Part shown: one piece after another, positions 1,361 to 21,309 of the stretch | Layout: every line of letters begins with the position of its first letter | Position numbering within the stretch: position 1 is the first letter of the stretch | From: a virus | Reading direction: 5' to 3' (one strand) | Virus record (IMG/VR): IMGVR_UViG_3300046011_002459 | Coordinates: 1 to 23,096 of that record | Length of the DNA: 23,096 nucleotides | Notes under the pieces: generated by a model | The model's database searches: none | What the model was told of the DNA's origin: nothing | What the model saw: the letters and a program-made list of their open reading frames with translations, nothing else | Made by a program: the position numbers and the translations under genes

Positions 1361-2179
1361 ATGCGACACCTTATCAAAGCGATGAAGACCGGGCGGCCTC
1401 TGATGATCCACCCATCTATTGCCAAGTCCCACATCGACCGCTTCCAGGCGCTTGAGGTCACCACGGACACCAAGGCCTCCGAGGTCTCCGAAATCCTAAA
1501 GATGATGTTTGGCGAACAGCCCAAGATGGAGATTGTCGGCAAGACCGCCGTCATCCCGGTCAAGGGTGTCATTGGACGCGGACTATCGGACATCGAGAAG
1601 ATGTGCAATGGCGTGGACGTCGAAGACATCTCCGCCAATATCGACGAGGCGCTTGCCAACCACACGGTCGAGAAAGTGGTCTTGGACTTCGATTCCCCCG
1701 GCGGTAGCACCGACGGTCTCGACGAGCTGGCTGAGAAGATCCGCACGATGCCGAAGTACTGTGAATCATACTGCGAGAAAGCCTGTCTTTCCGCTGCCTA
1801 TTACCTTGGCTCGCAAGCCAAGCGCTTCAATATCACCAAATCCGCAGAAATCGGTTCGGTCGGAGTCTATATGGCCTTCCCCGATGTGTCCGAAGCCTAC
1901 GCGATGGACGGCGTCAAGATGGAGGTTATTAAGTCCGGCAAGTACAAGGCTATCGGGATGGAAGGCACTAGCCTCTCGGACGATCAGCGCAAGTACCTCC
2001 AGGATGATGTCGATGAAACCCACAAGACCTTCAAGGAGACCGTTAAATCCGTCCGAAAGTACGTCAAGGACGAGGATATGGAAGGTCAGTCCTTCGTGGG
2101 GAAAAAGGCCGCTGAAAAGGGCTTCGTTACCGGGGTTGTGAGCGGTATGGAAGACATCTTGTCAGAGTACGTCGTTTGA
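1361..2179 (+). CDS. S49/ClpP-like head maturation protease (lambda gpC-like)
   Basis: This 272-aa serine peptidase of the SppA/S49 group processes scaffold and portal during prohead maturation in related phages. Seen: a beta strand VVLDFDSPGGST at about residues 106-117 (the oxyanion-hole GG), the nucleophile serine in EKACLSAAYYLGS at about residue 144, then SAEIGSVGVYMAFPD. Further on is the S49 general-base lysine candidate in IKSGKYKAIG, and the family's C-terminal signature GKKAAEKGFV. Length fits the single-domain phage form without a fused scaffold, and a separate coiled-coil gene follows. The start is ATG after a 21-base A/T-only tract and has no Shine-Dalgarno. The stop codon TGA lies inside the TTTGACA element that precedes the next gene. 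Confidence 0.9.
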   Translation: MRHLIKAMKTGRPLMIHPSIAKSHIDRFQALEVTTDTKASEVSEILKMMFGEQPKMEIVGKTAVIPVKGVIGRGLSDIEKMCNGVDVEDISANIDEALANHTVEKVVLDFDSPGGSTDGLDELAEKIRTMPKYCESYCEKACLSAAYYLGSQAKRFNITKSAEIGSVGVYMAFPDVSEAYAMDGVKMEVIKSGKYKAIGMEGTSLSDDQRKYLQDDVDETHKTFKETVKSVRKYVKDEDMEGQSFVGKKAAEKGFVTGVVSGMEDILSEYVV

Positions 2180-2189
2180 CACCCGGCTA
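2175..2189 (+). promoter_or_regulatory. TTTGACA-N3-GGCTA element, copy A
   Basis: TTTGACA at 2175-2181, three bases (CCC), then GGCTA at 2185-2189, 16 bases from the end of the element to the ATG at 2205. The identical 12 fixed bases with the same 3-base gap recur before 5464 and 11732. It overlaps the stop codon of the protease gene. A sigma70 reading fails: at a 17-base spacer from TTGACA there is no -10-like hexamer. Role inferred: expression signal for the scaffold/capsid genes. Confidence 0.55.
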
Positions 2190-2204
2190 ACTGCAATAAC
2201 CGCT

Positions 2205-2666
2205 ATGACCATCGAAGAACGCCTTAATTCGCTCAAGGAAGCCTTCACCGGGAAGGCCGCTGAAGCTGAAGCCTCGTCCGTCGAACTTACCAAGACCAAG
2301 GAAGCCCTTGAGTCGAAGGAAGCCGAACTGACCGAGTTTGCCTCCAAGCTCGCCGACTCCGTTTCGGCTATCGAGAAGATGGCTGCCAAGGTCACCGAAC
2401 TCGAAACCGCCCTTGCCGAGGCCGGCAAGAAGTACCTCGCCCTGGAAGCTTCGTTTGAAACGGCTGGCAAAAAGGCCGCCAAGATTGCTGCCTCTGTCGG
2501 CGTTGATCCTGTCGAAGTCGCCCCCATCGAAGCGTCTGCCTCCAGCAAGACGGACGAAGAAATCGCCCAAGAGTGGGCTGTCCTCAAGAAGTCCGATGCC
2601 AAGGCCGCCCAGAAGTTCTACGACCTCAACAAGAGCGCTCTGATGCGCCTCGCTGGTCTTCGCTAA
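2205..2666 (+). CDS. Probable scaffolding protein (coiled coil)
   Basis: This 153-aa protein lies between the head protease and the major capsid protein, the usual place of the internal scaffold (lambda Nu3 equivalent). Residues ~5-100 form a long heptad-rich, Ala/Glu/Lys-rich coiled coil (repeated KEALESKEAELTEF-type stretches). A linker rich in Ala, Ser and Val follows, then a helical C-terminal domain of ~40 residues ending KSALMRLAGLR, which would be the capsid-binding end by analogy with other scaffolds. No enzymatic motif is seen. Position and composition support the call. A head decoration role is less likely given the coiled coil. The ATG has no Shine-Dalgarno and is preceded by the TTTGACA-N3-GGCTA element. 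Confidence 0.6.
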   Translation: MTIEERLNSLKEAFTGKAAEAEASSVELTKTKEALESKEAELTEFASKLADSVSAIEKMAAKVTELETALAEAGKKYLALEASFETAGKKAAKIAASVGVDPVEVAPIEASASSKTDEEIAQEWAVLKKSDAKAAQKFYDLNKSALMRLAGLR

Positions 2667-2696
2667 TCTTTCCACCTCAAACCCTAAAACACTACT

Positions 2697-3593
2697 ATGT
2701 CTAACGCTATCGGAGGCTTGACCCTCCAGCTCGTGGCTGAAGAGTCCCTGCGGACGCTCGTTCCGCAGCTCGCTCCTCTGACCAAAATCGCGGTTACCGA
2801 CTTCGGCGCTTATGTCGCCGAGCGCGGTACGACCGTTCACACCCGCTACGCCGGGAAGTTCACCGCCCAGAACTACAACCGCGCGACTGGCTTCGTCGAA
2901 TCCGACGCCGTCTCGACGGATGTCCCGGTGACCCTCGTCGACCAGAAGCACGTCACCGTCGCTTTCACCGACTACGAAGTGGCTACCCTGTCGCTCGAAC
3001 GCCTCCGTCGCCTCTTTATGGCTCCGATGGCTAACGCCGTCGTCAAGTCCCTCTTCGACCAGGTTCTCACCAAGGTCGATGGCGATTTCGAGGCCGGTTA
3101 CGATGGCGCTCAGTCCGGCTTCAACCGTATCGCCGTCTCCAACATCGCCAAGAGCCTTACGCTCGCCAACCTCCCGCAGGAAGGTCGCGCTGCCCTCGTC
3201 TCCCCCGACGCCTACCAGCAGCTCATCTCCGACCCGGTGATCGCCCAGGCGTTCTCCATCGGTACTTCCGACGTCATCCGTGGCAACCGCCTCGGTATGA
3301 TCCACGGCATCGACTTCTACGAGTACAACGGCTTCGACGCTGCTGGTCTTGAAGCCGGCCTCAACGGCGTGGTCTCCTGCAAGGAAGGTCTCGTCGTCGT
3401 GACCCGCGTTCCTGCTGCCCCCACGACTGGTGGTGGCGAACAGACCATCGTGACCGACCCGGACAGCCAGTTCTCCTACGCTCTCCGCTACTGGTACGAC
3501 TGGTCGGCTGGTCTCCACAAGCTCTCCGCCAACTGGCTCATCGGTTCTGGCAAGGGCAACCCGGACGCGCTCCAGAAGATCACCTTCGCGTAA
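2697..3593 (+). CDS. Major capsid protein, HK97 fold
   Basis: The 298-aa main shell protein. Features typical of P22-coat-like/HK97-fold capsids are visible. An N-terminal helix leads to LAPLTKIAVTDFGAYVAERG. An extended E-loop-like stretch follows (TTVHTRYAGKFTAQNYNRA), then a spine helix region LSLERLRRLFMAPMANAVV. The P-domain pattern LVSPDAYQQLISDP is followed by GNRLGMIHGIDFYEYNGF, where capsids of this group carry a G-x-x-x-G-[IF]-[DE]-[VF]-Y-x-x-N motif. The gene has the most uniform C-ending codon use in the window, as expected for a highly expressed protein. No Shine-Dalgarno is visible in the C/A-rich leader. Two hairpins, the second a terminator, follow the stop. The fold is confident; the sub-family is inferred. 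Confidence 0.88.
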   Translation: MSNAIGGLTLQLVAEESLRTLVPQLAPLTKIAVTDFGAYVAERGTTVHTRYAGKFTAQNYNRATGFVESDAVSTDVPVTLVDQKHVTVAFTDYEVATLSLERLRRLFMAPMANAVVKSLFDQVLTKVDGDFEAGYDGAQSGFNRIAVSNIAKSLTLANLPQEGRAALVSPDAYQQLISDPVIAQAFSIGTSDVIRGNRLGMIHGIDFYEYNGFDAAGLEAGLNGVVSCKEGLVVVTRVPAAPTTGGGEQTIVTDPDSQFSYALRYWYDWSAGLHKLSANWLIGSGKGNPDALQKITFA

Positions 3594-3599
3594 TTTTCA

Positions 3600-3620
3600 G
3601 AGGGGTGAAGTCCACCCCTC
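3600..3620 (+). terminator. Perfect 8-bp hairpin after the capsid gene
   Basis: GAGGGGTG at 3600-3607 pairs perfectly with CACCCCTC at 3613-3620 around a 5-base loop. It begins 6 bases after the capsid stop and has no T tract of its own. It probably protects the capsid mRNA 3' end or assists the terminator that follows 14 bases later. Confidence 0.6.
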
Positions 3621-3634
3621 GACGCGCCAATGCA

Positions 3635-3671
3635 GAGAGGCTCACCACACAAGTGGTGGGCCTCTTCTTTT
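3635..3671 (+). terminator. Rho-independent terminator
   Basis: AGAGGCTCACCAC (3636-3648) pairs with GTGGTGGGCCTCT (3653-3665). This is 13 pairs with one T-G wobble, a 4-base ACAA loop, and a following T-rich tail TCTTTT to 3671. It separates the capsid transcription unit from the head-tail joining genes. The next gene's leader begins inside the T tail. Confidence 0.8.
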
Positions 3672-3688
3672 GACCATAGGCAATAGGT
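3669..3688 (+). promoter_or_regulatory. Degenerate TTTGACC/AGGCAA leader, copy D
   Basis: Directly on the terminator tail lies TTTGACC, then ATAGGCAATAGGT and the ATG at 3689. It resembles the TTTGACA-N3-GGCTA element with two mismatches and a one-base shorter gap. As transcription should drop at the preceding terminator, a restart signal here is plausible. The element is weak on its own. Confidence 0.3.
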
Positions 3689-4024
3689 ATGTCCATCTGG
3701 GATGAATTCACGGCTGATGCCCTATCCGTTCTCAACGAGATTGGTAAGGATATTCAGATTAAAGCCGTCCCCGGAGGCACTCCTGTTACCTTTAAGGCTC
3801 AAGTGACGACTCCTATGGTTCTCCAGGATATGGAGACTGGTGGCTTCCTCAACCAGACCACCTTTGAGGTAAAGATCCTACGAACCCACGCCGCAGCCCA
3901 GCCGGGTCTGTTCGCCTTCGGGAACATCGTGATCTACGACGGTCAAGAATACCGAATCGTCGCTCTAGCCAACAGGCCTCCTTCGGCGTGGCTTGTCGCT
4001 AGGGTTCAGACCAAGGTGCAATGA
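3689..4024 (+). CDS. Head-closure/head-tail connector candidate
   Basis: This 111-aa, mainly beta-strand protein immediately follows the capsid block, the slot of lambda gpFII/head-closure proteins that bridge the portal ring and the tail. The pattern is compatible with that fold: an N-terminal helix (SIWDEFTADALSVLNEIG), strands with a flexible middle loop, and a C-terminal FGNIVIYDGQEYRIVAL strand pair. No catalytic motif is seen. The stop TGA overlaps the next ATG by 4 bases (ATGA), suggesting coupled translation. The assignment rests mostly on position; another neck protein is possible. Confidence 0.5.
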   Translation: MSIWDEFTADALSVLNEIGKDIQIKAVPGGTPVTFKAQVTTPMVLQDMETGGFLNQTTFEVKILRTHAAAQPGLFAFGNIVIYDGQEYRIVALANRPPSAWLVARVQTKVQ

Positions 4025-5001
4025 ACACCCCCAAAGGATTCATCCGGGTCAAAAAGGGTGTCGTCGTCAATATGCAGGAGTTCCGCCAGCACCTTGGCGC
4101 GTACATTACTGCTATGGGTGGAAACGCTGCCAAGCTCCTCAAGAAGCAAGCAAGGCTATTCTGCTGGGATATGCTGGACTACACTATGCCGTGGTCTGGA
4201 GGAATGGGTATGGACGGAAAATCCAATGCTGCCAAGCAGTCTGGTCAGCGTCGCGTAAAGTCCCAGATTACTTCTCTATTCCTGCCCCTCCGTTATGTCA
4301 GCGCCGGGGAGATCCTACAGTTTGGCAATGAAGGTGTGTTCCACGCCTGGTTGAGGGCTAGAAAGACCCTTTCTGACCCTAAGTTGCCGGACTGGCTACT
4401 CGTCCACCCTTACAGCTCCGAAGGCACTACGCTTTGGAGAAGGTTCCAAGAATGGGAGTTTGCCCAGCAGGGGGCTGTCTTGAGTGGTAGTCTGGTAGAC
4501 CTTTCCACCTACTACGGAGGCAGGGTGGCCGATGTCCATAAGCGTGTTCGTGGCGGAGACCATACAGCCGGATACTTCGATAATATGGAGGCTGCCATTA
4601 CTTATGGTCAGCGCTACGTCGTGGATGATGACGGCAAGATGGTCAGCGCCTACTCCAAGAGGGTAGAAGCCCACGTCGGTCGCCTCAAGGCCGGCTGGTA
4701 CACGGCTGGTAGCCAACTGGGGTCGATGAAGGGGGTTGGTCAATGGATCATCGGAAACCAATGGGGTACTGGTGTCCTGGACAATAGGCTAGGCAATTCC
4801 ACGCTTCCTTCCGTTACCGTAGGAAACAAGGTGCAGGGTCTCCATAGGGCTACCAAGGACGGATACAGGTATGCCCTTAACCACCGAGCATACTCTATGC
4901 GGGTCGAGATTTATAATAAACTTGTTGCCTCAAACAACGCCAACCTACTTTATCATATTGCCAGCCACTACAATGTCGGCAGAGGCTTTGAAATCCAATG
5001 A
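4021..5001 (+). CDS. Tail-completion/minor tail protein candidate (gpZ slot)
   Basis: 326 aa, in the position of lambda gpZ / HK97 gp10-like tail-completion proteins. The N-terminal ~60 residues (FRQHLGAYITAMGGNAAKLL, then a helix with KKQARLFCWDMLDYTMP) resemble the first helix of gp10/gpZ-type proteins, in which the helix is followed by a Pro and a Gly-rich loop. The C-terminal part carries RVEAHVGRLKAGWYTAGS, similar to the paired helix-turn of that family, and then a basic, aromatic-rich end. The central ~150 residues are not recognised. It overlaps both neighbours by ATGA, and the start has a weak AAGG 6 bases upstream. The assignment is family-level inference. Confidence 0.5.
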   Translation: MNTPKGFIRVKKGVVVNMQEFRQHLGAYITAMGGNAAKLLKKQARLFCWDMLDYTMPWSGGMGMDGKSNAAKQSGQRRVKSQITSLFLPLRYVSAGEILQFGNEGVFHAWLRARKTLSDPKLPDWLLVHPYSSEGTTLWRRFQEWEFAQQGAVLSGSLVDLSTYYGGRVADVHKRVRGGDHTAGYFDNMEAAITYGQRYVVDDDGKMVSAYSKRVEAHVGRLKAGWYTAGSQLGSMKGVGQWIIGNQWGTGVLDNRLGNSTLPSVTVGNKVQGLHRATKDGYRYALNHRAYSMRVEIYNKLVASNNANLLYHIASHYNVGRGFEIQ

Positions 5002-5435
5002 GCGCCATCATCCGTTCCATCATCGAAGACAAGCTTTCAGCGTACCTCGCTGCCAACCTGTCCGGGGTAACCGTCCACAAGGGCATCACCGAGGAGCTTC
5101 GCGTTGTACCCCTCGTAATCGCCTATTGCGAGGCCGCTATGCCCGACCCTGCCCTAGGGGCTACCCCGCTGGGAAACTACCGCTGTAAGATCAATGTGTT
5201 CGTCTATTCCAGCGCCGACGACGACACTTTGGCTACCCACCGACAGCGCGTGAGCAATGTCCACGGACTAATGGCTGATGTTAATGCCTTGAAGGCTCTT
5301 TGGAACCCAAATGGCTCCGAGGGTAAGATGTACGCTTGCTGGATCGAGTCCGACGAAGAGGGTATGAAGAGCAGAAATTACGGTAACCTTATCAATTATA
5401 CGATGGTTGCCGTACTCCCACCCTCCCCGGTTTGA
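4998..5435 (+). CDS. Tail-terminator-like protein (gpU slot)
   Basis: 145 aa, next after the gpZ-like gene, as lambda gpU/tail terminators are. These proteins cap the finished tail tube. Seen: an N-terminal helix (IRSIIEDKLSAYLAANL), beta strands with a variable loop (VTVHKGITEELRVVP then LVIAYCEAA), a strand YRCKINVFVYSS, a long helix after DDDTLATHRQRV, and a C-terminal strand NYTMVAVLPP. This alpha-beta order matches the gpU/gp17 tail-terminator fold. The start overlaps the previous stop by 4 bases. The stop codon TGA lies within the TTTGACA of the element upstream of 5464. Confidence 0.5.
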   Translation: MSAIIRSIIEDKLSAYLAANLSGVTVHKGITEELRVVPLVIAYCEAAMPDPALGATPLGNYRCKINVFVYSSADDDTLATHRQRVSNVHGLMADVNALKALWNPNGSEGKMYACWIESDEEGMKSRNYGNLINYTMVAVLPPSPV

Positions 5436-5445
5436 CAGTCGGCTA
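5431..5445 (+). promoter_or_regulatory. TTTGACA-N3-GGCTA element, copy B
   Basis: TTTGACA at 5431-5437, GTC, then GGCTA at 5441-5445. A TATAAT follows at 5450-5455, only 12 bases from TTGACA, so it is not a standard sigma70 pair. As in copy A, the TGA of TTTGACA is the stop of the preceding gene. Confidence 0.55.
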
Positions 5446-5464
5446 GTGGTATAATCTACCACTA
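5444..5464 (+). promoter_or_regulatory. Perfect 8-bp inverted repeat ending on the start codon
   Basis: TAGTGGTA (5444-5451) and TACCACTA (5457-5464) are perfect inverted repeats around the loop TAATC. The final A is the first base of the ATG at 5464. As RNA it forms a hairpin that would abut the start codon. As DNA it is a 21-bp dyad that could bind a repressor over the TATAAT. The structure is seen directly; the role is inferred. Confidence 0.55.
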
Positions 5465-5796
5465 TGGCTCTTTTTGAATTTGGCGAAGCCCTTGTTTTCG
5501 GCCCCCTTGACGAAGTCACCGGGGTTGTTGTGCAATCCGATTCTTGGACTGTCCGCTTTGGCCTCGATGTCGAAGTGATGGACGAGCAGGGTCGTGTCAT
5601 CACGAACCGCCTGGACGACGAGCGCAACGAGATTACCATCGAAGGTGTCATTAGGGTTCTTGACTCCGTTGAACCCGGTCAGACTCTCAATTACGGCGGT
5701 TTTGTCTTTATTATCAAGGAAGTGACCGACCGAGGCTCTAACCAAGAGTACCGTAAGTTGTCCATCCGAGGAATCAAGTACCAGGAGATTGCCTAA
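5464..5796 (+). CDS. Small tail protein of unknown class (major tail protein slot)
   Basis: This 110-aa, predominantly beta protein lies between the tail terminator and the tail chaperone/tape measure genes, where the tail tube protein normally sits. It carries alternating strands (VTGVVVQSDSWTVRFGLDVE, NEITIEGVIRVLD, FVFIIKEVTD, KLSIRGIKYQEI) and charged turns, and no catalytic motif. It is shorter than known tube proteins, so either it is a compact tube subunit or a minor tail component and the tube protein is elsewhere. The strong upstream element and hairpin suggest tightly controlled or high expression, which would suit a tube protein. The specific role is not recognised. Confidence 0.45.
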   Translation: MALFEFGEALVFGPLDEVTGVVVQSDSWTVRFGLDVEVMDEQGRVITNRLDDERNEITIEGVIRVLDSVEPGQTLNYGGFVFIIKEVTDRGSNQEYRKLSIRGIKYQEIA

Positions 5797-5824
5797 CGGC
5801 AATAGCGGCCGTTGGACGACCGCT
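5788..5824 (+). promoter_or_regulatory. Tandem hairpins around a TTG start
   Basis: The first hairpin is ATTGCC (5788-5793) with GGCAAT (5798-5803), loop TAAC, containing the stop of the previous gene. The second is AGCGG (5804-5808) with CCGCT (5820-5824), with an inner CGT/ACG pair (5810-5812 and 5816-5818) that places the TTG start of the next gene at the apex. No Shine-Dalgarno is present. Translation of the next gene may depend on ribosomes melting these stems. Confidence 0.45.
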
Positions 5825-6381
5825 TTACACAGGCTATCAAGACTTCCATCTTGGAGATGGAGGTCTGTGGTCGTAAGCTTAAACCTATCTGCCTTAGGCA
5901 TACGCTGATCCTAACGGAGATTGAGTCTCCGGCGATTTTCACCAACAAAGTGATGTCGCCACAAGACCTAGTCCTGGCCTGTCGAATCCTTTCGACCTAT
6001 GACCTGCGCGAAATGCTTTCGATCAAGGCTAACGACATCGACTCCCAGGCGTTCTTGCTACTCTTAACGGATTCCGCAAAATACAACGAGGAGCTTAAGA
6101 AGTTCTGCGAATATCTGAAATTTCAAGACAACGCTCCTATCCTTTGGGAGAAGAAGTCTAATGGCAACGGCAGGGGTGTAGGAACCGTCCTGTCCTGCGT
6201 GTCTAACCTTATCCGTAATGGCATCGAATATGAGAAAGCCTGGACGATGCCGGAATCCGAAGCCGTATGGTTTTACGTCGCAAACACTATCGCTGCCGGA
6301 GCCGACATCAATGTCGTCGATGACCGTGACAAGGCCGCGATGGAGATGCTAAACAAAATGAATATCCCCAAGAAAAAATGA
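5812..6381 (+). CDS. Tail assembly chaperone candidate (gpG slot)
   Basis: 189 aa, directly before the tape measure gene, where lambda gpG/GT-type chaperones keep the tape measure soluble. The start is TTG: the same frame is closed by a TAG at 5803, and the first in-frame ATG (5857) would cut off an N-terminal helix. It is mostly helical. The N-terminal LKPICLRHTLILTEIESPAIF block and the later MPESEAVWFYVANTIAAGAD are reminiscent of phage chaperone-like small proteins, but no signature is conclusive. The stop overlaps the tape measure start (ATGA). An AAAAAA run just before the stop would, on a -1 slip, fuse this protein to the tape measure frame. Confidence 0.45.
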   Translation: MDDRFTQAIKTSILEMEVCGRKLKPICLRHTLILTEIESPAIFTNKVMSPQDLVLACRILSTYDLREMLSIKANDIDSQAFLLLLTDSAKYNEELKKFCEYLKFQDNAPILWEKKSNGNGRGVGTVLSCVSNLIRNGIEYEKAWTMPESEAVWFYVANTIAAGADINVVDDRDKAAMEMLNKMNIPKKK

Positions 6382-7793
6382 GCGACGAAGTAAAAGTTAA
6401 ATTCGTCGCCGATACCACCGGCCTACAAGGTGCTACCGTTCCGGCGCAGATCCCTGTCGGCGGGGGTGGCGCTGGTGGTTCTGGGGGTACTGCTACCGCT
6501 ACCGCTCCTCGCCCTTCCGGCGGGGGGGGCGGTGGGGGTTCTGGAGGCTCCGGCGGTGGATTTGGCGGTGGAGGCTCCGGCGGTGGGGGCGGTGGGGGTG
6601 GTGGGGGTGGGGGCGGAAACATCTACCCTTGGTCTAAAGGCTGGGGAGATCAGTTTAAGAAAGACCTAGGTAACGAAGCCGAGAATATGTTGAGCGGAAT
6701 TAATCTGCTTCAACAGGTCATCAACATCGGCGTAAGAGGAACCAAAGAGGGAATCGAGTATGCCCAGAAAATCCAAGCAGCAGCTCGCATCACCGACCTT
6801 TCCGTCGAGCAAGTACAGAAGTACGGATACGCTGCCAAGATGTCCGGCGTCGAGTTTGACACCTTCGTCAGCGCCATCGCAAATGGCAACAAGGCGATGG
6901 GTAAGATGGCTCTTGAGGGTGGCAATGGCATCGTCGCAATGCGACGCCTTGGGATCAGCATCGAAGGCGTCCGAGACCATAGCATCTCCTCCCTGGACGT
7001 CATCCTAAAGATGGCCGATGCTTACCAGAAACACGCTGAGACAGCCGATATGGCTCGACTCGGTAACGAACTTTACGGCGACTCCTTTAAGCAGATGATC
7101 CCAATGCTCCGGCAGGGTCGCGCTGAAATCGAGAAGATTGCTAACAATGCCCCTGTTCTAAAGACAACGACCGTCTCCGGCGTATCGGCTGCCGGCCGTA
7201 TGGCTACTAATACCGGAAAGACCTTCTGGTCTAACTTTGTAGAGTCTGTGGTGGGTTTTGGCAAAAATGACATAGCCTCTATTCAAGATATGGCCAACCC
7301 TCACGGTGGTCATTCTGGACTTACCGCAAAGCAAAGGGCTGATGCACTTCTTGGTAAAAAGGACGAAAGTATTTCCAGGTTCCTTCTCAACGCCATTGGT
7401 GGTTTTAAGAGTACTAAATTGGAGGCTTACGGAACTAGGGGCGTAGGTGAAACTACCAGCGATGTCATCTCTAAGTACGAGCAAGTCTACGGCAAGGACA
7501 AGGAAAAGATGGGAGAAAAGCCTAGGGCTGTGTATGAAGAACTCCTCAAGGTTCGCGAAGAGGAACTCAAGAACAAGCCCAACCTCCAGTCCGGGATCTT
7601 CCAGGCTGCCTCCACGATGCAACAGGTCGGTGGCGGTGACGTCCTATCCGCTATCTCTCGCGTTGACTTCGCCCAGCAGACCTCGGATAACACCCGGCGT
7701 ACCGCCGAAGCCGTCGAAAGGCTTGCAAACGGCGCTGGAGGAACTGACAATACCCCCGCCCCTGTGGATACCAACGGCCCAGTAGCAAAATAA
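6378..7793 (+). CDS. Tail tape measure protein with polyglycine segment
   Basis: This 471-aa protein likely sets tail length and occupies the tube before DNA ejection. The N-terminal VKVKFVADTTGLQGA is a common tape-measure start. Residues ~28-82 are almost entirely Gly/Ser/Ala with a run of 13 Gly. A helical body follows with LSVEQVQKYGYAAKMSGVEF and LGNELYGDSFKQMIPMLRQG, patterns recurring in phage tape measures. The end, ASTMQQVGGGDVLSAI followed by DNTRRTAEAVERLA, matches tape-measure C-termini. If the usual ~1.5 angstroms per residue applies, the tail would be short (about 70 nm), less if the glycine part is not helical. There is no transmembrane pore segment or lytic domain. The ATG overlaps the upstream stop, and the next gene starts 2 bases after this one ends. 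Confidence 0.75.
   Translation: MSDEVKVKFVADTTGLQGATVPAQIPVGGGGAGGSGGTATATAPRPSGGGGGGGSGGSGGGFGGGGSGGGGGGGGGGGGGNIYPWSKGWGDQFKKDLGNEAENMLSGINLLQQVINIGVRGTKEGIEYAQKIQAAARITDLSVEQVQKYGYAAKMSGVEFDTFVSAIANGNKAMGKMALEGGNGIVAMRRLGISIEGVRDHSISSLDVILKMADAYQKHAETADMARLGNELYGDSFKQMIPMLRQGRAEIEKIANNAPVLKTTTVSGVSAAGRMATNTGKTFWSNFVESVVGFGKNDIASIQDMANPHGGHSGLTAKQRADALLGKKDESISRFLLNAIGGFKSTKLEAYGTRGVGETTSDVISKYEQVYGKDKEKMGEKPRAVYEELLKVREEELKNKPNLQSGIFQAASTMQQVGGGDVLSAISRVDFAQQTSDNTRRTAEAVERLANGAGGTDNTPAPVDTNGPVAK
6457..6620 (+). repeat. GGC/GGT/GGG glycine-codon low-complexity repeat
   Basis: An almost uninterrupted series of glycine codons with occasional Ser/Ala codons, built from GGCGGTGGGGG-like units, densest at 6583-6618. 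The repeat keeps the frame of the tape measure gene. It also yields a meaningless polyproline frame on the other strand. Confidence 0.85.
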
Positions 7794-7794
7794 A

Positions 7795-8718
7795 ATGACC
7801 ATCCCTATCTACCAGCCTAACGGCATCACGTTCAAAGAATTCGGTCAGAAGCTCCAGGCTGAATGGGTGATGGACAAGACCTGGACGGTCTCCCACGACG
7901 GCTTTGGCCTTGTCACGATGCAGCTCAAGTTCGTCGCCGACTCCGACAAGTCTTATGACGTAGCGACCGACTTCCCTCGCGGTAGTTCTCCCCCCATCGA
8001 GAATATGGAGAATATGACCCTTCATAAGGCCGTCGCAACGACCAACAACGGCGTTTGCACGGTCATTGCCGATTACTGTGGTATTGACGGAGCCTCGGAT
8101 TCTACGATCACGCAGGTGCAGGTCTCAAGCGCCACCGGGCAGGAAGCCATTGAGACTCACCCTAATTTCAGCAAAGTTCAATGCGCCAAGATTGGGAAAG
8201 TCCTAGCCGGCCCTGCGAAGTACATTTTCGACAACGAGAGTGATGCTGCCATTAATCCTCATAAGGCTCACTTCGCCGTAGTTACTACGGCTTCTGGACA
8301 GCAGACCCAGTACCAGTTCGTAGGCTTCCTTCCGTCCACAAAGCCAGAAGATCCTGTGAACCTAAAGGCCGGTGTTAGATCCTACTTCAAGCCTGGCATC
8401 ACCCTGCGTTGCCTTGCCTACACTAATAGTTCTGAAACGGCATCTTTGACTATTCGTCGCGTCGGTTGGGCTAACTACGGCAACATCGGAGCAATCGTGC
8501 TGCCCCCTCCCTACAACACCCTCCTGGACGAGTTTGATTCCGACCTGCCACTCACCCTTCCCGACGGCATACAGCGCAACAGAAACTACCTTTGCACGAA
8601 CGCCTCTGTCGAAGTCTACGGTGGCCTCTATAAAGTCCAGGCTGACCTTATGATGTCTGGCATCATTGGTTGGGATCCAGATATCTACCCGACCGACGAA
8701 ACCAGCCCTAACGACTAA
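7795..8718 (+). CDS. Tail protein of unknown class, after the tape measure
   Basis: 307 aa, in the place of distal-tail/tail-tip proteins (lambda gpM/L/K zone). It is beta-rich: FKEFGQKLQAEWVMDKTWTV, GLVTMQLKFVADSD, and a repeated strand pattern through SLTIRRVGWANYG, ending YGGLYKVQADLMMSGIIGWD. It has only three or four Cys and no Ig repeats or peptidase motif, and I do not recognise a family. Gap to the previous gene is one base and to the next is an overlap (TAATG at 8716-8720), so it is translated with the tail genes. Distal tail or baseplate-hub component is inferred from position. Confidence 0.5.
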   Translation: MTIPIYQPNGITFKEFGQKLQAEWVMDKTWTVSHDGFGLVTMQLKFVADSDKSYDVATDFPRGSSPPIENMENMTLHKAVATTNNGVCTVIADYCGIDGASDSTITQVQVSSATGQEAIETHPNFSKVQCAKIGKVLAGPAKYIFDNESDAAINPHKAHFAVVTTASGQQTQYQFVGFLPSTKPEDPVNLKAGVRSYFKPGITLRCLAYTNSSETASLTIRRVGWANYGNIGAIVLPPPYNTLLDEFDSDLPLTLPDGIQRNRNYLCTNASVEVYGGLYKVQADLMMSGIIGWDPDIYPTDETSPND

Positions 8719-11099
8719 TGGGACTAGAAGGCTTTTCTAACAATCACTCCGGCGGTATGTCGCCGGGTGACCACCTGTATGCCAAGACATTCAACAAGCT
8801 GGCTACTTCCGCCGACAAGGCGCAGATTGGGCCGTCTGACGGCGTAATCTTTACCGCAACGAACGGTGGAGTTGGGATGTATATCCCACAGCAGACGCAG
8901 GAAGGTAAAGCGCCCCTTCTCCAACAGTTTGAGATTGTGGTCGAGCCGTACCAAGTGGCCGGCGAAGAGCTGGGTCTTTCCATCATCCGTGTTGTTAAGG
9001 GTGAGGTCGTATGGATCCCTGTACTACCGCAGGACGAAATTCCTATTCCTGTTCCGATTCCTACTGATAAGTGCGTTACGCAGACGACCATTAAAAACTG
9101 GTTCGCACTCCCGACGTTCCCAATCATCGACGACGAGAACTCTACGTTCATCGGTGACGGAGGTATCCGTGTTCCTAACATCGAAGGCATTGACGTAGCC
9201 ATCTACGTCTTCAAGTCCACGATGCTACCGATTGACCACGATCCTATCATCATCGCAGTTCCTAACACAGGATACGAACTTACCTGCCCAGTAACATTTC
9301 CCGGAACGCCTCCATTCCCCCTCGCCGTTTGGCAAGCCATCAAGGTCGGCAGCGCCAAGTATGAAGTCCCAGAAGGTTCGGAAGAAGATACTCCGCCTCA
9401 ATGGATCGTCACCCAGAACTTCATCGGGTCTATGGTCTTCCCCGGTGGCGGTACATCTGATAGCCCAGCCAACAAGCCGTTCCTTCCTGCCCAGTTGCCA
9501 TCCACGGCAATCCAGAAGCCTCGCCCGATCCCTTTCGAGTGCCGTATCGAAGTGGACTCTGGTGGAGATATGCTCCTCAAGATTGGCAACGGAACTGTTT
9601 CCTACACTCGGAGCAATATGCCGTATGTCGGTACTGGCTCACGAATCAACAGATTCCAGATGGAGTATGATCAACTCCAGGTATGCCCTACTGGCTGGAA
9701 GAAGCAGGGCAATTCCGCCGACGGCTGGATGGCGCTAGGCGGTGGTTATAAGATCACCGGGGAAGGACAATGGTATATTGTCGCTTCGTACTGGGACGCC
9801 CTAGAAGGCCCAAACTTTACGCTACCAGACCCTGTTAAGCCCGGTCGTCCTTTCCTTTCCCTTATCGATGCCTACGGCGCTGACGTAGACAAGTTGTTCG
9901 TCGAGACCGGCCCCGGTCTGTACACGAATACGATGAATATCCAGAAGATGTCTGGATATACCAGCGAAGACACCGGGGATGACTGGGATTGGGGCTATTG
10001 CCACACGACCTACTTCAACCCAATGAAGCTTGGATATGACGCCAAGATGATTGCAAGAATCGAGTCGCGTCAAGCCGACCAGTCTGTCGCCCAAATCTTC
10101 ATCTCGCAGACCGCTACGGAATTCCGCAATCAGATTCAGAACATCTACTTCCCTGTGCTGCCGAAGGATGGATTCGTGGTGTTCATCTACGACGGATTAC
10201 CATCTCTTCCTTTCTACCCGGCTCCTTGGTCTGGCGTAAACAATGCTACTGACCTTTTCAACTCGCTCCAGGCTATCCCAGCTCTCGTAGGCAATATTCA
10301 AGTCACTCGCACAAGCGATCACAACTTCTATGTGACCTTCATCAACGACCTGGAGGCAACCGATTGTCCTATTCTTGTTGCCAACAACAGCGGCCTAGAG
10401 TCTTGGCCTTACGAGTATGTCATCGACCAGTACCACGTTGGCAACCTCGTTCTTGACACCACTCCACGGTTTGATGGTACACAGATTATGAACAAGGCAG
10501 ATGTAACACAGGCTGAAGATCCGTATGTTGTTCAATCGAATAATGAACCAGCGTTCAACAAGGTCATCAATAAGGACGACCTAATGGCCTGCACCGGCCT
10601 CTCTGGTGACAATGACTTTACCAGCGCAATCATCCCTATTGTTGATAACGGATCGCCAAGAAATGTGACCACTCGTCAATGGACTTACGGAGTTGCCAGC
10701 GGTTGCTCCAACCAAGACGGAGATACTTTCCCTTATCGCGTCTATGTATTGGGCAATGGCGAAGGCGTCATCGAGTACGCTGTGGACGAAGGTATGCTCA
10801 ACAATGTCATTCCTAGCAACATCGATGATGTCATCAGTCTCCCGGCTGATACGGATACATACATCTATGTTAAGGCTGGGAACACTTTCAACGCTGGCAT
10901 CAATCTCTTCCCAGACCCTGCGGATGTGACTATCGAATACGGATCTTCCGTGCCAGAGCAGTCCAATGAGTACTGCTATGTCCTCATCGCACACATCACC
11001 GGGACTACGATCAACCAGATTATCAAGAACTCGCTTTGGGGTGATCGAATCAAGGTCTCCGACAGCGCCGACGCTACCTACTACATCGCAGGGGTCTGA
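8718..11099 (+). CDS. Large tail-associated protein, unknown class
   Basis: 793 aa. The N-terminal ~110 residues (SPGDHLYAKTFNKLATSADKA, then FTATNGGVGMYIPQ and a strand-rich part QQFEIVVEPYQV) look like a virion-anchoring module repeated in many phage structural proteins, followed by a Pro/Ile-rich linker (IPIPVPIPTD). The rest is beta-rich with many aromatic residues and several Gly-Thr-Asp turns, typical of receptor-binding or tail-tip proteins. There is no glycanase or peptidase motif I can name. Start and stop overlap both neighbours by one base (TAATG, TGATG). It is a candidate tail-tip or host-recognition protein by position; the lambda gpJ signature is not seen. Confidence 0.5.
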   Translation: MGLEGFSNNHSGGMSPGDHLYAKTFNKLATSADKAQIGPSDGVIFTATNGGVGMYIPQQTQEGKAPLLQQFEIVVEPYQVAGEELGLSIIRVVKGEVVWIPVLPQDEIPIPVPIPTDKCVTQTTIKNWFALPTFPIIDDENSTFIGDGGIRVPNIEGIDVAIYVFKSTMLPIDHDPIIIAVPNTGYELTCPVTFPGTPPFPLAVWQAIKVGSAKYEVPEGSEEDTPPQWIVTQNFIGSMVFPGGGTSDSPANKPFLPAQLPSTAIQKPRPIPFECRIEVDSGGDMLLKIGNGTVSYTRSNMPYVGTGSRINRFQMEYDQLQVCPTGWKKQGNSADGWMALGGGYKITGEGQWYIVASYWDALEGPNFTLPDPVKPGRPFLSLIDAYGADVDKLFVETGPGLYTNTMNIQKMSGYTSEDTGDDWDWGYCHTTYFNPMKLGYDAKMIARIESRQADQSVAQIFISQTATEFRNQIQNIYFPVLPKDGFVVFIYDGLPSLPFYPAPWSGVNNATDLFNSLQAIPALVGNIQVTRTSDHNFYVTFINDLEATDCPILVANNSGLESWPYEYVIDQYHVGNLVLDTTPRFDGTQIMNKADVTQAEDPYVVQSNNEPAFNKVINKDDLMACTGLSGDNDFTSAIIPIVDNGSPRNVTTRQWTYGVASGCSNQDGDTFPYRVYVLGNGEGVIEYAVDEGMLNNVIPSNIDDVISLPADTDTYIYVKAGNTFNAGINLFPDPADVTIEYGSSVPEQSNEYCYVLIAHITGTTINQIIKNSLWGDRIKVSDSADATYYIAGV

Positions 11100-11692
11100 T
11101 GGGCGCTAAACTCAAGATGCAGGAAGACTGGCCTAGTCCTACTTGGGCAAGTCAAAGGGCTTGGCTTCCCAACATCTGGTTTGGCGGTGTGTACACTTAT
11201 ACAGATATCATCGGCCCTTGGAGGATGGATTACTCTTACCCTGTAAAAGAGGCTGAACCATATATGATCAGGAACTTTAAGTCCCCCTGGACTGGAGTGT
11301 CCGTTACTTCTTTTGTTTTCGTAAACAAGTACCCAGAGCCATATCAGCCTGGGCAAAGCCGAGATGTCTATATCAGCGGTGTAATCTACGACCCCCAATC
11401 TATCCAATATGATGAAGAGGGCAATATGTTACCTCCAGGTGGCTATGTTGCTTGGAACAGGCTGGCCGCAGACTTGAACCACTTGAAAGAGCTTGTTGGC
11501 AAGTTGACAGTACGAACACGATGGTATGATGAGTATGCAGGAACTTTTAGGTTCGTGGATACAGTAGTCACGGATAAGAGTATCAATAACAATACGGATA
11601 CCACTCCCTTTCAGCCAACCGGGGACTTTGTCACAACTGCTGGGCCTAACGAGTTTGGTCAGTTCTGGGACTTTACGATTGCCTCGTCTTGA
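11099..11692 (+). CDS. Tail-associated protein, unknown class
   Basis: 197 aa, unusually rich in Tyr, Trp and Pro (DWPSPTWASQRAWLPNIWF, YPEPYQPGQSRDVYISG), with mainly short strands predicted and one amphipathic helix (NRLAADLNHLKELVGKL). It has no signal peptide, no membrane segment and no enzymatic motif. Codon use is more A/T-ending than in the capsid genes. An AGGGG sits 5 bases before the ATG, which overlaps the previous stop. It lies between the large tail protein and the fibre, so it is probably part of the tail tip or a fibre attachment protein. The function is not recognised. Confidence 0.45.
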   Translation: MGAKLKMQEDWPSPTWASQRAWLPNIWFGGVYTYTDIIGPWRMDYSYPVKEAEPYMIRNFKSPWTGVSVTSFVFVNKYPEPYQPGQSRDVYISGVIYDPQSIQYDEEGNMLPPGGYVAWNRLAADLNHLKELVGKLTVRTRWYDEYAGTFRFVDTVVTDKSINNNTDTTPFQPTGDFVTTAGPNEFGQFWDFTIASS

Positions 11693-11705
11693 GAATTGAC
11701 CCCCT

Positions 11706-11720
11706 TTTGACAGGGGGCTA
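11706..11720 (+). promoter_or_regulatory. TTTGACA-N3-GGCTA element, copy C
   Basis: TTTGACA at 11706-11712, GGG, then GGCTA at 11716-11720, followed by GGTATAGGACT and the ATG at 11732. The TTTTGACA also forms the loop of a small stem, CCCCC (11700-11704) with GGGGG (11713-11717). The downstream GTATA matches copy B. Confidence 0.55.
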
Positions 11721-11731
11721 GGTATAGGACT

Positions 11732-14362
11732 ATGGCTATCAACACCTACCGCTTTTGGATGGCGACTGACGCCAACCGTCTGCTTGCGAACCAGAATGCA
11801 TTCATCCAAGCCGCAGCTCCCGCCTTCTACCAAGGCAATGTCGCCCAGCTTGAACTCCACATCGTGGCTTCTTCCGGCGTCGGAACCTCCCCGGTCGAAC
11901 TGCCCTTCCCGGCTGGCGCGGAGATCAGCGTAGCCGTAGGCGATACCAATACCTACCCTACTGGCGGTTCTTGGGAGTTGTCCGTCGATGAAGTCGAGAC
12001 AGCGCCTATGCCCTATAACGCTACGACGGCGCAAGTGGCATCGGCTCTCAACGCCCTTCCATCCGTCTCCAATGCTGGGGGTGTAGGCGTCTACAAGACC
12101 GGGGATGGTTACACCATCACCTGGAACACCTATGGCCTCAAGCCCACCATCGGCATCGGCTCAGACACCCTTACCCCTTCCTCCTACCAGTCCATCAGCC
12201 TCGTACAGGCCGGCAATCCCGAACATCGCCAGATTGTTTTTGTTGAACTGCGCCAGAATCCGATTGCTCTAGGCGTAGATTGGACTCCACTTCCTTCGCC
12301 TACGGTTACCGTCAGCGAAGTCCAGGCTTGGAACGGAACTAACAAGATTTACCGGGTGACCATTTCACCACAGCCGAAGGCTGGTACGATTACCATCGCC
12401 TACGGCACGAAGACCGCCACGCTGGCTTACAATGCTTCGCCGGCCTCTATTACTTCCGCGCTATCCCCGGCTCAAGCGTTTGCTACCGGGCAGTACCAAT
12501 GGGACATCGCCATCGTCGAGGACAGCGTCCTTACGGCTTCCGGCAGCCTTGTAGGCTACAACGGCTACTCCGGATCTATCAACTTTGCCACCGCCGAGTG
12601 CCACCAGTTCCTTGCCGGAGCTGAACGCAAGTCTACGACTCTTGAGGTCTCAATGAGCGTAGACGACAAGCGCTACACCCTCATCCAGACGCCTTGCAAT
12701 GTCTTTGCAGACGTCGTTTCGGATGGCGTACTTCAGCCTCTTCCATTGGGAGTAGCCCTATCCGAACAGGTTGCCAACGCACGATTCGTACGTCGAGACA
12801 TCGACCAGAACCCGGACGCTTCCACGCAGGATGTCATCTGGCAGAACCTTGGAGTCGAAACCCTCGGCTCGGATGTGGCCGGCGCTATCAACGGAGCTGA
12901 CTCCCCTTCGGCAGCAAACCCCTTTGCCACGATCAGCGACATCCCGACTGTCACCTCTGCCGTCTGGGGACAGATTACCGGGGACATCGAAAACCAAAGC
13001 GACCTCGACTACGCTCTCACCTCGCTTGACAACCTCAAGTACGACAAGAGCAACCCGGCTGGATTCATCACACAGGCTGACGTTGCTGGATTTGCTACAC
13101 AGCAATGGGTTACTGACCAGAACTATCTTTCTAGTTCTTCGTCCGATTTTGAGTTTAGTGGCTATAACATTGCTTTCAACAACAGCGTAAAGTTCCTAGG
13201 TCTTGATGGAAAAGCTCCGATCAATATCGGCGCTGTGTTCCTTCAGCCAGGAGGCACTCTCAGTAATGGCGATATGTGGTTCAACACGGCAGATGGCCGT
13301 CTTGGCTACTACTACACTCAGCAATCTGGTTCTGGTGTGCGTTATGCGGCCACTACTACTGATCTTCAGTCTTACTATCCTTCGTCCAATCCGCAGGGGT
13401 TTATTACGGCTTCTGCGCTTACGCCTTACGCCACGAATGCTTCTCCCGCTTTGACCGGGACTGCCACGATCACAAACACTCCGGGTTCGGGCGGCCTTAG
13501 CGTAGTAACAAGCGGTGTTAATGCATACACTAGTAGCCTAACCAGTAGCATACTCCGTGTTGGATTCCTCAATTACCAGAACGCAAATGCGTATATGACT
13601 GCAACTGAGGTTGGCGTTGGTGGTGACGCTACTGGACTCGCTCGTCTTTCTACCAATAATACTGGTGGTGCTAATCCTCAATTATACCTTTGGGAATACG
13701 GCCCTGCGGCCCCCATCCAGGGACGAAGCACTATCATCAAGGAAGGAAAGTTCTTCGTTGATAACAACCAAGGAGATGGCCCTGTCGAGGTGTATGCTCC
13801 TTATGCCGTACTTGACACCAAAGCCAACCTCTCTGGTGCGGCCTTTACTGGTAAGGTCAATTTTGCCACGATTAGTTCAAGTTCTCCAAGCATTAACCTT
13901 GGAGGTCAATGCGACTCTGCTCCGGCTTCGGCAACTAACGGAGACCTGTGGATTTCAAATGCGGCCTCGCCTAAACTGACCTATCGGACTAGCGGGATTA
14001 ATTACAACTTAGCCGTCCTAAATCAGTTCAACACCTTTACCGGGCAGATGGTGATCGACACAAGCAGTAGCACAACTGCGGCCCTCCGTGTCACCCAGCG
14101 TGGCTCTGGTAATGCCATCGAGGTTGAGGACAGCACCACCCCCGATGCCACCCGCTTCGTCGTAGATCAGTTCGGCAAGGTTGGCGTAGGTACTGCCCCG
14201 GACGCTACTGCGGCCATTAGGGTGGATGGCAACGGCATCTCGTTCAATGGCCTGTCCTTTAATCCTACTGGAACGGCCTCCCATACTGGAGGCCCGGACA
14301 CCCTAGACCTTCTGGTCACCATCAACGGCGTGAACTACCGCCTCGGCCTCCGTCCCGCTTAA
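11732..14362 (+). CDS. Modular tail fibre / receptor-binding protein
   Basis: 876 aa. The first ~70 residues (FWMATDANRLLANQNAFIQA, FYQGNVAQLEL) look like a virion-attachment module. Two Ig-like repeats follow: one around residues 75-150 with PYNATTAQVASALNALPSV and AGGVGVYKTGDGYTITWN, a second around 215-290 with GTITIAYGTKTATLAYNASP. The C-terminal half carries repeated fibre modules: NPAGFITQADVAGFATQQW and NPQGFITASALTPYATNAS; NGDMWFNTADGRLGYYY and NGDLWISNAASPKLTYRT; and LSGAAFTGKV. It ends with a FGKVGVGTAPDATAAIRVDG stalk and INGVNYRLGLRPA, a short copy of the latter module. No intramolecular chaperone domain is recognised. It probably mediates host attachment. Confidence 0.75.
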   Translation: MAINTYRFWMATDANRLLANQNAFIQAAAPAFYQGNVAQLELHIVASSGVGTSPVELPFPAGAEISVAVGDTNTYPTGGSWELSVDEVETAPMPYNATTAQVASALNALPSVSNAGGVGVYKTGDGYTITWNTYGLKPTIGIGSDTLTPSSYQSISLVQAGNPEHRQIVFVELRQNPIALGVDWTPLPSPTVTVSEVQAWNGTNKIYRVTISPQPKAGTITIAYGTKTATLAYNASPASITSALSPAQAFATGQYQWDIAIVEDSVLTASGSLVGYNGYSGSINFATAECHQFLAGAERKSTTLEVSMSVDDKRYTLIQTPCNVFADVVSDGVLQPLPLGVALSEQVANARFVRRDIDQNPDASTQDVIWQNLGVETLGSDVAGAINGADSPSAANPFATISDIPTVTSAVWGQITGDIENQSDLDYALTSLDNLKYDKSNPAGFITQADVAGFATQQWVTDQNYLSSSSSDFEFSGYNIAFNNSVKFLGLDGKAPINIGAVFLQPGGTLSNGDMWFNTADGRLGYYYTQQSGSGVRYAATTTDLQSYYPSSNPQGFITASALTPYATNASPALTGTATITNTPGSGGLSVVTSGVNAYTSSLTSSILRVGFLNYQNANAYMTATEVGVGGDATGLARLSTNNTGGANPQLYLWEYGPAAPIQGRSTIIKEGKFFVDNNQGDGPVEVYAPYAVLDTKANLSGAAFTGKVNFATISSSSPSINLGGQCDSAPASATNGDLWISNAASPKLTYRTSGINYNLAVLNQFNTFTGQMVIDTSSSTTAALRVTQRGSGNAIEVEDSTTPDATRFVVDQFGKVGVGTAPDATAAIRVDGNGISFNGLSFNPTGTASHTGGPDTLDLLVTINGVNYRLGLRPA

Positions 14363-17897: not shown

Positions 17898-18152
17898 TTA
17901 CTCCTCGAAGAAGTTCAAGCCTTTACGAGCGTATCTTTTATTGAATGTTACGCCGAACCATCTCTCTTCACACATCGGCATAATATTATAGTCAACCCAT
18001 TGCTTTGCATCAAATGGACTAAAATCATTGATCTCAATCACGCAGTAGATAAGTCTGTAATAAGAATAAAGCAGATGACCATCGTCAGTCTTTCCGACGA
18101 TGGCCGTCTTGAATATCTCTTTTGGCTCTAGTTGTACCTTACGCTTCGCCAT
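17898..18152 (-). CDS. 84-aa protein of unknown function in an AT-rich island
   Basis: Start at the ATG within the end of the methyltransferase gene (overlap 14 bases, AATGGCGAAGCGTAA). A longer reading up to 18245 merely shadows that gene. It is basic at the N-terminus (MAKRKVQLEPKEIFKTAIVG), then has strand-rich aromatic parts (LLYSYYRLIYCVIEIND) and a WVDYNIMPMCEERWF stretch. No family recognised. The DNA at 17941-18120 is about 39% GC by my count, well below the primase (about 55-60%), which suggests acquisition from a different source. It may be a host-takeover or methyltransferase-associated protein. Confidence 0.6.
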   Translation of the reverse strand: MAKRKVQLEPKEIFKTAIVGKTDDGHLLYSYYRLIYCVIEINDFSPFDAKQWVDYNIMPMCEERWFGVTFNKRYARKGLNFFEE

Positions 18153-20097: not shown

Positions 20098-20348
20098 CTG
20101 GTGGCTTTGTAGTGAGCCACCGTGCAATATCTGCCTTTCGTGACAATCTTAAAACGACGCATTTCCATCAATTTATTCTTCAAGGCAAAATCTATGTAGC
20201 GCTCAACGGAAGATCGAGCAACGCCCCAAATCTTCTTCCATTGTGCTATTGTATAAAATCCCTCAGGAATCTCCTGCTTCTCAGAAAGATACTGTTCGTG
20301 AATCTTGTCTAGGAGCTTCTGTGCTTCAGATTTTTTGGGAGATGCCAT
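20094..20348 (-). CDS. Small winged-helix-like DNA-binding protein
   Basis: 84 aa. N-terminal basic/helical part (SEAQKLLDKIHEQYLSEKQ), then EGFYTIAQWKKIWGVARSSV and ERYIDFALKNKLMEMRRFKI: a helix-turn-helix with the turn at about GVARSSVERYI, followed by a wing ending VTKGRYCTVAHYKAT. This small phage protein type (GxYTxxQWAxxxGxSRSxxxR...HY) is probably a DNA-binding or replication accessory. Its start lies 40 bases inside the phosphoesterase gene and its stop overlaps the methyltransferase start by 4 bases (ATGA). That suggests co-translation with the methyltransferase, so it could regulate that gene or guide the enzyme. Function not established. Confidence 0.6.
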   Translation of the reverse strand: MASPKKSEAQKLLDKIHEQYLSEKQEIPEGFYTIAQWKKIWGVARSSVERYIDFALKNKLMEMRRFKIVTKGRYCTVAHYKATR

Positions 20349-21058: not shown

Positions 21059-21309
21059 ACCCTAGCCTTGAGTCTAGTCTTCTTGAATGCCCTGTATCGT
21101 TTTTGGTAGTCCCGCTGGTATGCGTTCTTGTGGATAACCTTGGTAATAGCGTGAACAGCCAAGGCGGCCTCAAGGCTCATCATCACGAAGGAGTGATTGC
21201 CCTTCTTGGCTGCCATTATCGCCCTCCCCAAGGCCGGCAGTCCGCTGGTCTTTCGCGTGGATACGGCGCTTTCCCGGCTTGGGTTCGGGGCAGGTAAAGG
21301 TTGGGACAT
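21055..21309 (-). CDS. 84-aa protein of unknown function
   Basis: Start chosen at the ATG in TAATG (21309), overlapping the previous stop, with GGAGGA about 8 bases upstream. The N-terminal 31 residues are Pro/Ser-rich and low in predicted structure. From M32 (MAAKKGNHSFVMMSLEAALA) the sequence is helical and ends with YQRDYQKRYRAFKKTRLKAR, a strongly basic amphipathic tail that could bind nucleic acid. An internal start at M32 (21216) is possible. Another frame overlaps the first 140 bases (see the candidate at 21170-21415). No family recognised. Stop overlaps the phosphoesterase start. Confidence 0.6.
   Translation of the reverse strand: MSQPLPAPNPSRESAVSTRKTSGLPALGRAIMAAKKGNHSFVMMSLEAALAVHAITKVIHKNAYQRDYQKRYRAFKKTRLKARV

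Follow-up and report, generated by a model that had tools for sequence, protein, structure and literature searches.

A conserved, concertedly evolving element before the late-gene blocks of a freshwater siphovirus and its relatives

What is the role of a short sequence that recurs, with fixed internal spacing, just before the starts of structural genes in a bacterial virus? We addressed this question in a window of 23,096 bases, an entire IMG/VR record from a freshwater bacterial virus, with siphovirus structural genes grouped in a module on its + strand and replication genes on its − strand (based on the ORFs of the window and their profile matches). No nucleotide match for the window was found in the phage collection. 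By protein comparison, the named phages closest to it are Verrucomicrobia phage P8625 (KP792622), at 27% for the major capsid protein (MCP) and 24% for the portal, and Akkermansia phage Moulinsart, at 27% for the portal; from these, the host is likely verrucomicrobial. The window also has a C5-cytosine DNA methylase gene among its early genes (18139-19881, −), and its tape-measure gene starts with a long glycine-rich stretch in G-rich DNA (6460-6620).

The first-pass annotation had reported three copies of the string TTTGACA-N3-GGCTA, and we found exactly three, all of them + strand matches, at 2175-2189, 5431-5445 and 11706-11720 (elements A, B and C; Table 1). The claim that this is far beyond chance also held, with 0 occurrences in 100 dinucleotide shuffles. 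The degenerate copy announced before 3689 lies at 3669-3683 (TTTGACCATAGGCAA; element D), immediately behind a terminator hairpin whose T run merges with the element, and its GGCTA ends 5 nt before the ATG. Other details proved less uniform than described. The gap to the ATG is as given at C, but is 15 and 18 nt at A and B rather than 16-20 nt. The association with non-overlapping junctions is partial (the open junctions before the protease gene at 1361, the MCP gene at 2697 and g9 at 5812 have no element), and only at A and B does the upstream gene end on the TGA of TTTGACA, with C and D free of this overlap, which is incidental. The TATA-like boxes noted 12 and 10 bp after B and C are real but not common to other sites. 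A perfect inverted repeat, GTGGTA-TAATC-TACCAC, stands right before the g8 start (5446-5462); we discarded it as a functional hairpin, as one arm changes without compensation in relatives.

Table 1 Elements, gene blocks and terminator in the window.
Feature	Position	Strand	Basis or remark
Element A, TTTGACACCCGGCTAACTGCAAT, before g3 (ATG 2205)	2175-2197	+	exact match; GGCTA-ATG gap 15 nt; overlaps protease stop codon
Element D, TTTGACCATAGGCAATAGGTATG, fused to g5 ATG (3689)	3669-3691	+	2 mismatches to TTTGACA-N3-GGCTA
Element B, TTTGACAGTCGGCTAGTGGTATA, before g8 (ATG 5464)	5431-5453	+	exact match; GGCTA-ATG gap 18 nt; overlaps g7 stop codon
Element C, TTTGACAGGGGGCTAGGTATAGG, before fibre gene (ATG 11732)	11706-11728	+	exact match; GGCTA-ATG gap 11 nt
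Second TTGAC, 11 bp upstream of the TTGAC of element C	11696-11700	+	sequence
Block A: g3 (2205-2666) and MCP gene (2697-3593)	2205-3593	+	ORFs; MCP by PHROGs
Intrinsic terminator behind MCP gene, AGAGGCTCACCAC-ACAA-GTGGTGGGCCTCT then T run	3636-3671	+	sequence
Block D: g5, g6, g7, starts overlapping	3689-5435	+	ORFs
Block B: g8, g9, tape measure, g11, g12, g13	5464-11692	+	ORFs; tape measure by PHROGs
Fibre-like gene, opens block C	11732-14362	+	ORF; homologous to P8625 tail fibre via a relative (G009)

We then examined related virus contigs, 80 of which were retrieved by their major capsid protein and 23 more added by alignment search. A set of five elements per genome is conserved in 104 related contigs, located before g3, g5, g8, the fibre block and, as revealed by a PWM scan, a gene left of the window that we call gpW-like (a name given by position to a short gene next to the portal gene, without a family match). 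The first-pass annotation had allowed that relatives might lack the element at orthologous starts; instead, when the 60 bp before each start were searched, the best match differed at 0-3 bases in 229 of 230 locus-starts (g3, 68/68; g5, 77/77; g8, 59/60; fibre, 25/25). The starts of the portal, protease, MCP, g6, g7, g9, g11 and g12 genes have 4-7 mismatches in almost all loci; the MCP gene has a free 30-nt leader without the element, but follows g3, which has one. In the first 80 contigs exact copies of TTTGACA-N3-GGCTA are confined to the late strand, and none with a spacer of another length was found. Of the 298 matches that the PWM scan of both strands gave at score 13, 278 stand before late-strand ORFs and 2 are on the opposite strand. 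At the g5 site, where the window has its degenerate copy, one relative (L061) has the exact string, and 36 of the 46 distinct g5 sites of relatives have a terminator-like hairpin and T run directly upstream. An extra TTGAC stands 9-11 bp (one helical turn) upstream in 12 of 37 distinct sites of type C, and almost never at other sites.

Beyond this group, viral contigs with TTTGAC-N4-GGCTA-N5-ATGGC yielded several copies per contig only in these relatives, and no prophage relatives were found in bacterial genomes. Two further candidate sites were rejected: one before the metallophosphoesterase gene (21063-21077, −) falls within a conserved stretch (RLKAR) encoded by the gene upstream and is thus a coincidence, while a strong match at 4777 inside g6 is coding and confined to near-identical phages. 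In one clade, early genes have ACGGTTGAC-...-GGCAAAGTC before or near their starts (upstream of the primase among the − strand genes of L212 and L214, and near the 17898-type gene of L225), possibly a separate early-gene element.

The logo built from 127 distinct sites reads T-TTGAC-(A/T)-N3-GGC-(T)-A-N4-Y-A, and the full element, T-TTGAC-N4-GGC-N-A-N4-Y-A, spans about 21-23 bp. From the end of GGCNA to the ATG there are 4-8 nt at g5, 5-8 at the gpW-like gene, 5-16 at g3 (8 nt at many g3 starts), 9-19 at g8 and 10-19 at the fibre block (104 loci); at the g5 and gpW-like sites, the first base of TTGAC and the ATG are about 19-22 bp apart. The bases that vary between genomes tend to be common to the sites of a single genome: L059 has GGCAAATAGTA at four sites, and other within-genome variants are GCTAATTCCAA (L069-type), GGCTAAAARCA (L066-type) and GGCGATA (L053). 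We quantified this agreement in 26 divergent representatives by shuffling within each site type, a design that only partly removes relatedness among the representatives. Agreement among the sites of one genome exceeded every shuffle at positions 6, 7-9, 13 and 15-18, with per-position z values of 7-11 at 0, 6, 13, 15-17 and 19, and z stayed near 0 from −20 to −1 and, isolated values aside, beyond 23. The concerted change thus covers bases 0-22 but not the flanks, which delimits the element to about 21-23 bp. Such change within genomes, next to flanks that do not follow it, suggests that the element is read in trans.

The element is therefore a conserved, concertedly evolving late-gene initiation element, with its copies before the first gene of each block. 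We consider it somewhat more probable than the reverse (at roughly 55%) that it acts as a late core promoter of unusual geometry, giving rise to leaderless or nearly leaderless mRNAs and depending on host RNA polymerase and a phage activator. Under this reading one element type would serve five late operons, transcription would start at or near the Y-A at positions 19-20, which resembles a YR initiator (YR at −1/+1 has been described; PMC4782308), and the host polymerase would read the element together with a phage-specific DNA-binding protein. The promoter reading is supported by the finding that only block-start genes carry the element, on the late strand, and by the g5 elements that abut terminators, as these leave about 20 bp for a promoter between terminator and ATG. 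Leaderless starts make up 10% of the transcription start sites in the verrucomicrobium Akkermansia (PMC4782308). The scarcity of SD-like (Shine-Dalgarno-like) motifs and the lack of a favoured RNA structure also speak for a promoter. For late phage promoters that are leaderless and have a motif in common, the literature search gave a jumbo-phage study only. Against a promoter, the would-be −10 region is rich in GGC, an unusual composition for melting; neither a sigma factor nor an RNA polymerase gene was identified; and an element that acts in translation could equally lie 4-8 nt from the ATG, as at the g5 and gpW-like sites (8 at many g3 starts). The first-pass annotation had suggested either a promoter for a non-standard sigma or phage-encoded factor, or a site to which a phage regulator binds. 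Explanations of this class still fit best and gain strength from conservation, strand bias and within-genome concert, while a phage sigma factor, one of the factors it had in mind, was not recognised above the cut-off in 16 long relatives.

Translational control and repressor or stoperator sites are the main rivals to the promoter reading. In the first, UUGAC-N4-GGCNA would act in the mRNA, where a phage protein or the ribosome would bind it and control initiation at the first gene of a block. The short distances at g5, the gpW-like gene and many g3 starts are comparable to those of Shine-Dalgarno (SD) motifs, SD-like motifs are almost absent at these starts, and all copies are sense-oriented. 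However, the g8 and fibre sites lie 9-19 nt from the ATG, the MCP and protease genes have free leaders and yet no element, the element abuts terminators, and the predicted folding of the element with the start region was no stronger than that of shuffles, with no conserved RNA fold found. We thus regard control at the level of translation as unlikely, if worth keeping in mind.

Slightly less probable again is an operator or stoperator, at which a phage repressor would bind and block or terminate transcription of the late blocks. The stoperators of Cluster A mycobacteriophages are likewise asymmetric, oriented repeats near gene boundaries with a phage-specific consensus (PMC6550527). Those phages are temperate and have 20-30 sites genome-wide, as opposed to five here, all in late genes on the late strand and none in early genes; an integrase was not found in the 16 long relatives (with a positive control). 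Nor would a stoperator account well for sites that always stand directly before an ATG and have stayed at orthologous junctions despite deep divergence.

An ordinary sigma-70 promoter, with TTGACA as −35 and a TATAAT-like box 10-12 bp downstream, is improbable. TTGAC does match the −35 consensus, and TATAAT is present at site B of the window, but TATA-like boxes are not shared between sites, and the earlier observation that TTGACA has no −10 at the usual spacing was borne out, with no shared −10 at 16-18 bp across sites. In unrelated phages with the same TTGACA-N3-GGCTA string, TATAAT is mostly 16-18 bp away. Moreover, with the ATG only 4-8 nt after GGCNA, a sigma-70 promoter with TTGAC as −35 cannot serve g5 or the gpW-like gene, as a start about 35 bp after TTGAC would fall inside these genes. 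Nine long relatives showed no excess of ordinary sigma-70 promoters at 16-18 bp spacing. We also rejected a host-type promoter: a search for TTTGAC-N4-GGCTA-N5-ATGGC in 84,980 genomes gave 97 scattered matches, and among the matches listed none was named Verrucomicrobia. Least probable of all are boundary sequences for recombination between modules of related phages, which would fit elements homogenised within genomes at block boundaries but not the N3 spacer, spared from homogenisation more than the rest, nor the sharp stop at the element edges, and which would leave the fixed strand and ATG spacing unexplained.

If the element is a late promoter, which protein would read it? The factor is more likely a small activator that cooperates with the RNA polymerase of the host, given that no phage sigma factor passed the cut-off and no RNA polymerase was seen: no ORF of RNA polymerase size is among those listed for the relatives, and a search with PF00940 had no match in the 16 long relatives, where the control search also gave nothing. 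Promoters of T7-like single-subunit RNA polymerases are about 23 bp long, homogeneous within a genome and different between genomes, and have the start inside the motif. The element is alike in length, within-genome homogeneity and between-genome difference, but has a variable spacer, and no polymerase gene was seen in records of 29-39 kb.

The best candidate for the activator is a protein of about 165 aa (163-190 aa in eight long relatives) with a C-terminal helix-turn-helix, HTH (VAKKYGVSKATISWRVKKVQKRL), encoded directly upstream of the terminase genes TerS and TerL. Its gene keeps this position, and in 17 of 18 contigs it lies 2.5-3.1 kb ahead of the first element. Matches to sigma region 4, KorA and LuxR-type HTH domains, whether by profile or by fold, were all below significance, the AlphaFold2 model (mean pLDDT 64) reaches moderate confidence solely in its C-terminal HTH (73-88), and the BFVD matches are unnamed phage proteins; its possible link to the element thus comes from gene position and weak HTH matches only. 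In staphylococcal phages, the small DNA-binding regulators RinA and Ltr are encoded before terS and activate packaging and structural genes (PMC13123087). The HTH protein would resemble them in position, by analogy and not by membership, as it has no RinA or ArpU family match (NCBIfam, Pfam) and no sequence similarity was shown; moreover, the promoter under RinA/Ltr-type control precedes the late genes and has upstream direct repeats as well as a TATA box, whereas here the elements are short, five in number and dispersed, and abut start codons. We rejected an 84-aa HTH-like protein (20094-20348, −) as the trans factor, as G012 and G013 have the same element but different putative recognition helices. 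This putative helix is hypervariable between otherwise near-identical phages (44-58% identity, compared with 83-93% for neighbour genes), as if under diversifying selection.

Phage P8625 has TTGACA-N17-TATTGG, TTGACA-N17-TATTGG and TTGACA-N17-TATCTG at 5448, 10772 and 15594, each N7 before an ATG, with 0.05 exact matches to TTGACA-N17-TATNNG-N7-ATG expected per genome, and at 9656 an ATG follows TTGCCA-N17-TATTGG-N7 behind a terminator. The site at 10772 corresponds to g7 and not g8 (by weak profile matches) and is thus one gene off. Relatives of P8625 have TTGAC-type boxes roughly 34-40 nt before the ATG at several such starts. A distant relative therefore has promoter-like elements directly before the ATG at similar late-block starts: as in the window, a TTGACA-type box is found in several copies per genome before block-start ATGs, one of them behind a terminator after the capsid gene. 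The two differ in that P8625 has TTGACA at −36, N17 and TATNNG, which is sigma-70-like, whereas the window and its relatives have TTGAC at about −19 to −33 and GGCNA. The annotated TTG start of P8625_13 at 9620 (L251) lies within TTGCCA-N17-TATTGG and is probably wrong; the ATG at 9656 fits better. In Moulinsart (L252) another repeat, AGAGACGG(C/T)(G/A)GGGA, occurs at 2787, 4642, 15316 and 470, shortly before the ATG of the pre-portal gene, the protease and the fibre, and may be a late element of the same kind with a different sequence.

To our knowledge, little is known about late-gene switching in phages of Verrucomicrobia. A more specific version of our preferred reading, which we hold only tentatively, is a new late-promoter architecture, probably of verrucomicrobial siphophages, in which a 20-bp core with TTGAC at about −19, GGCNA at about −10 and Y-A at −1/+1 would produce leaderless mRNAs at five operons, read by host RNA polymerase with a sigma-4-like phage activator that would contact TTGAC at a non-standard distance, and drifting in specificity in concert within each phage. 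If transcription does start at position 20, TTGAC would be nearer to the start, by about 15 bp, than is normal for sigma factors, in an arrangement tied to leaderless translation. The element probably switches on the making of the building parts of the virus, and with 21-23 bp, five sites per genome, about 100 natural genome variants and one candidate regulator, it makes the late switch of an uncultured phage group testable.
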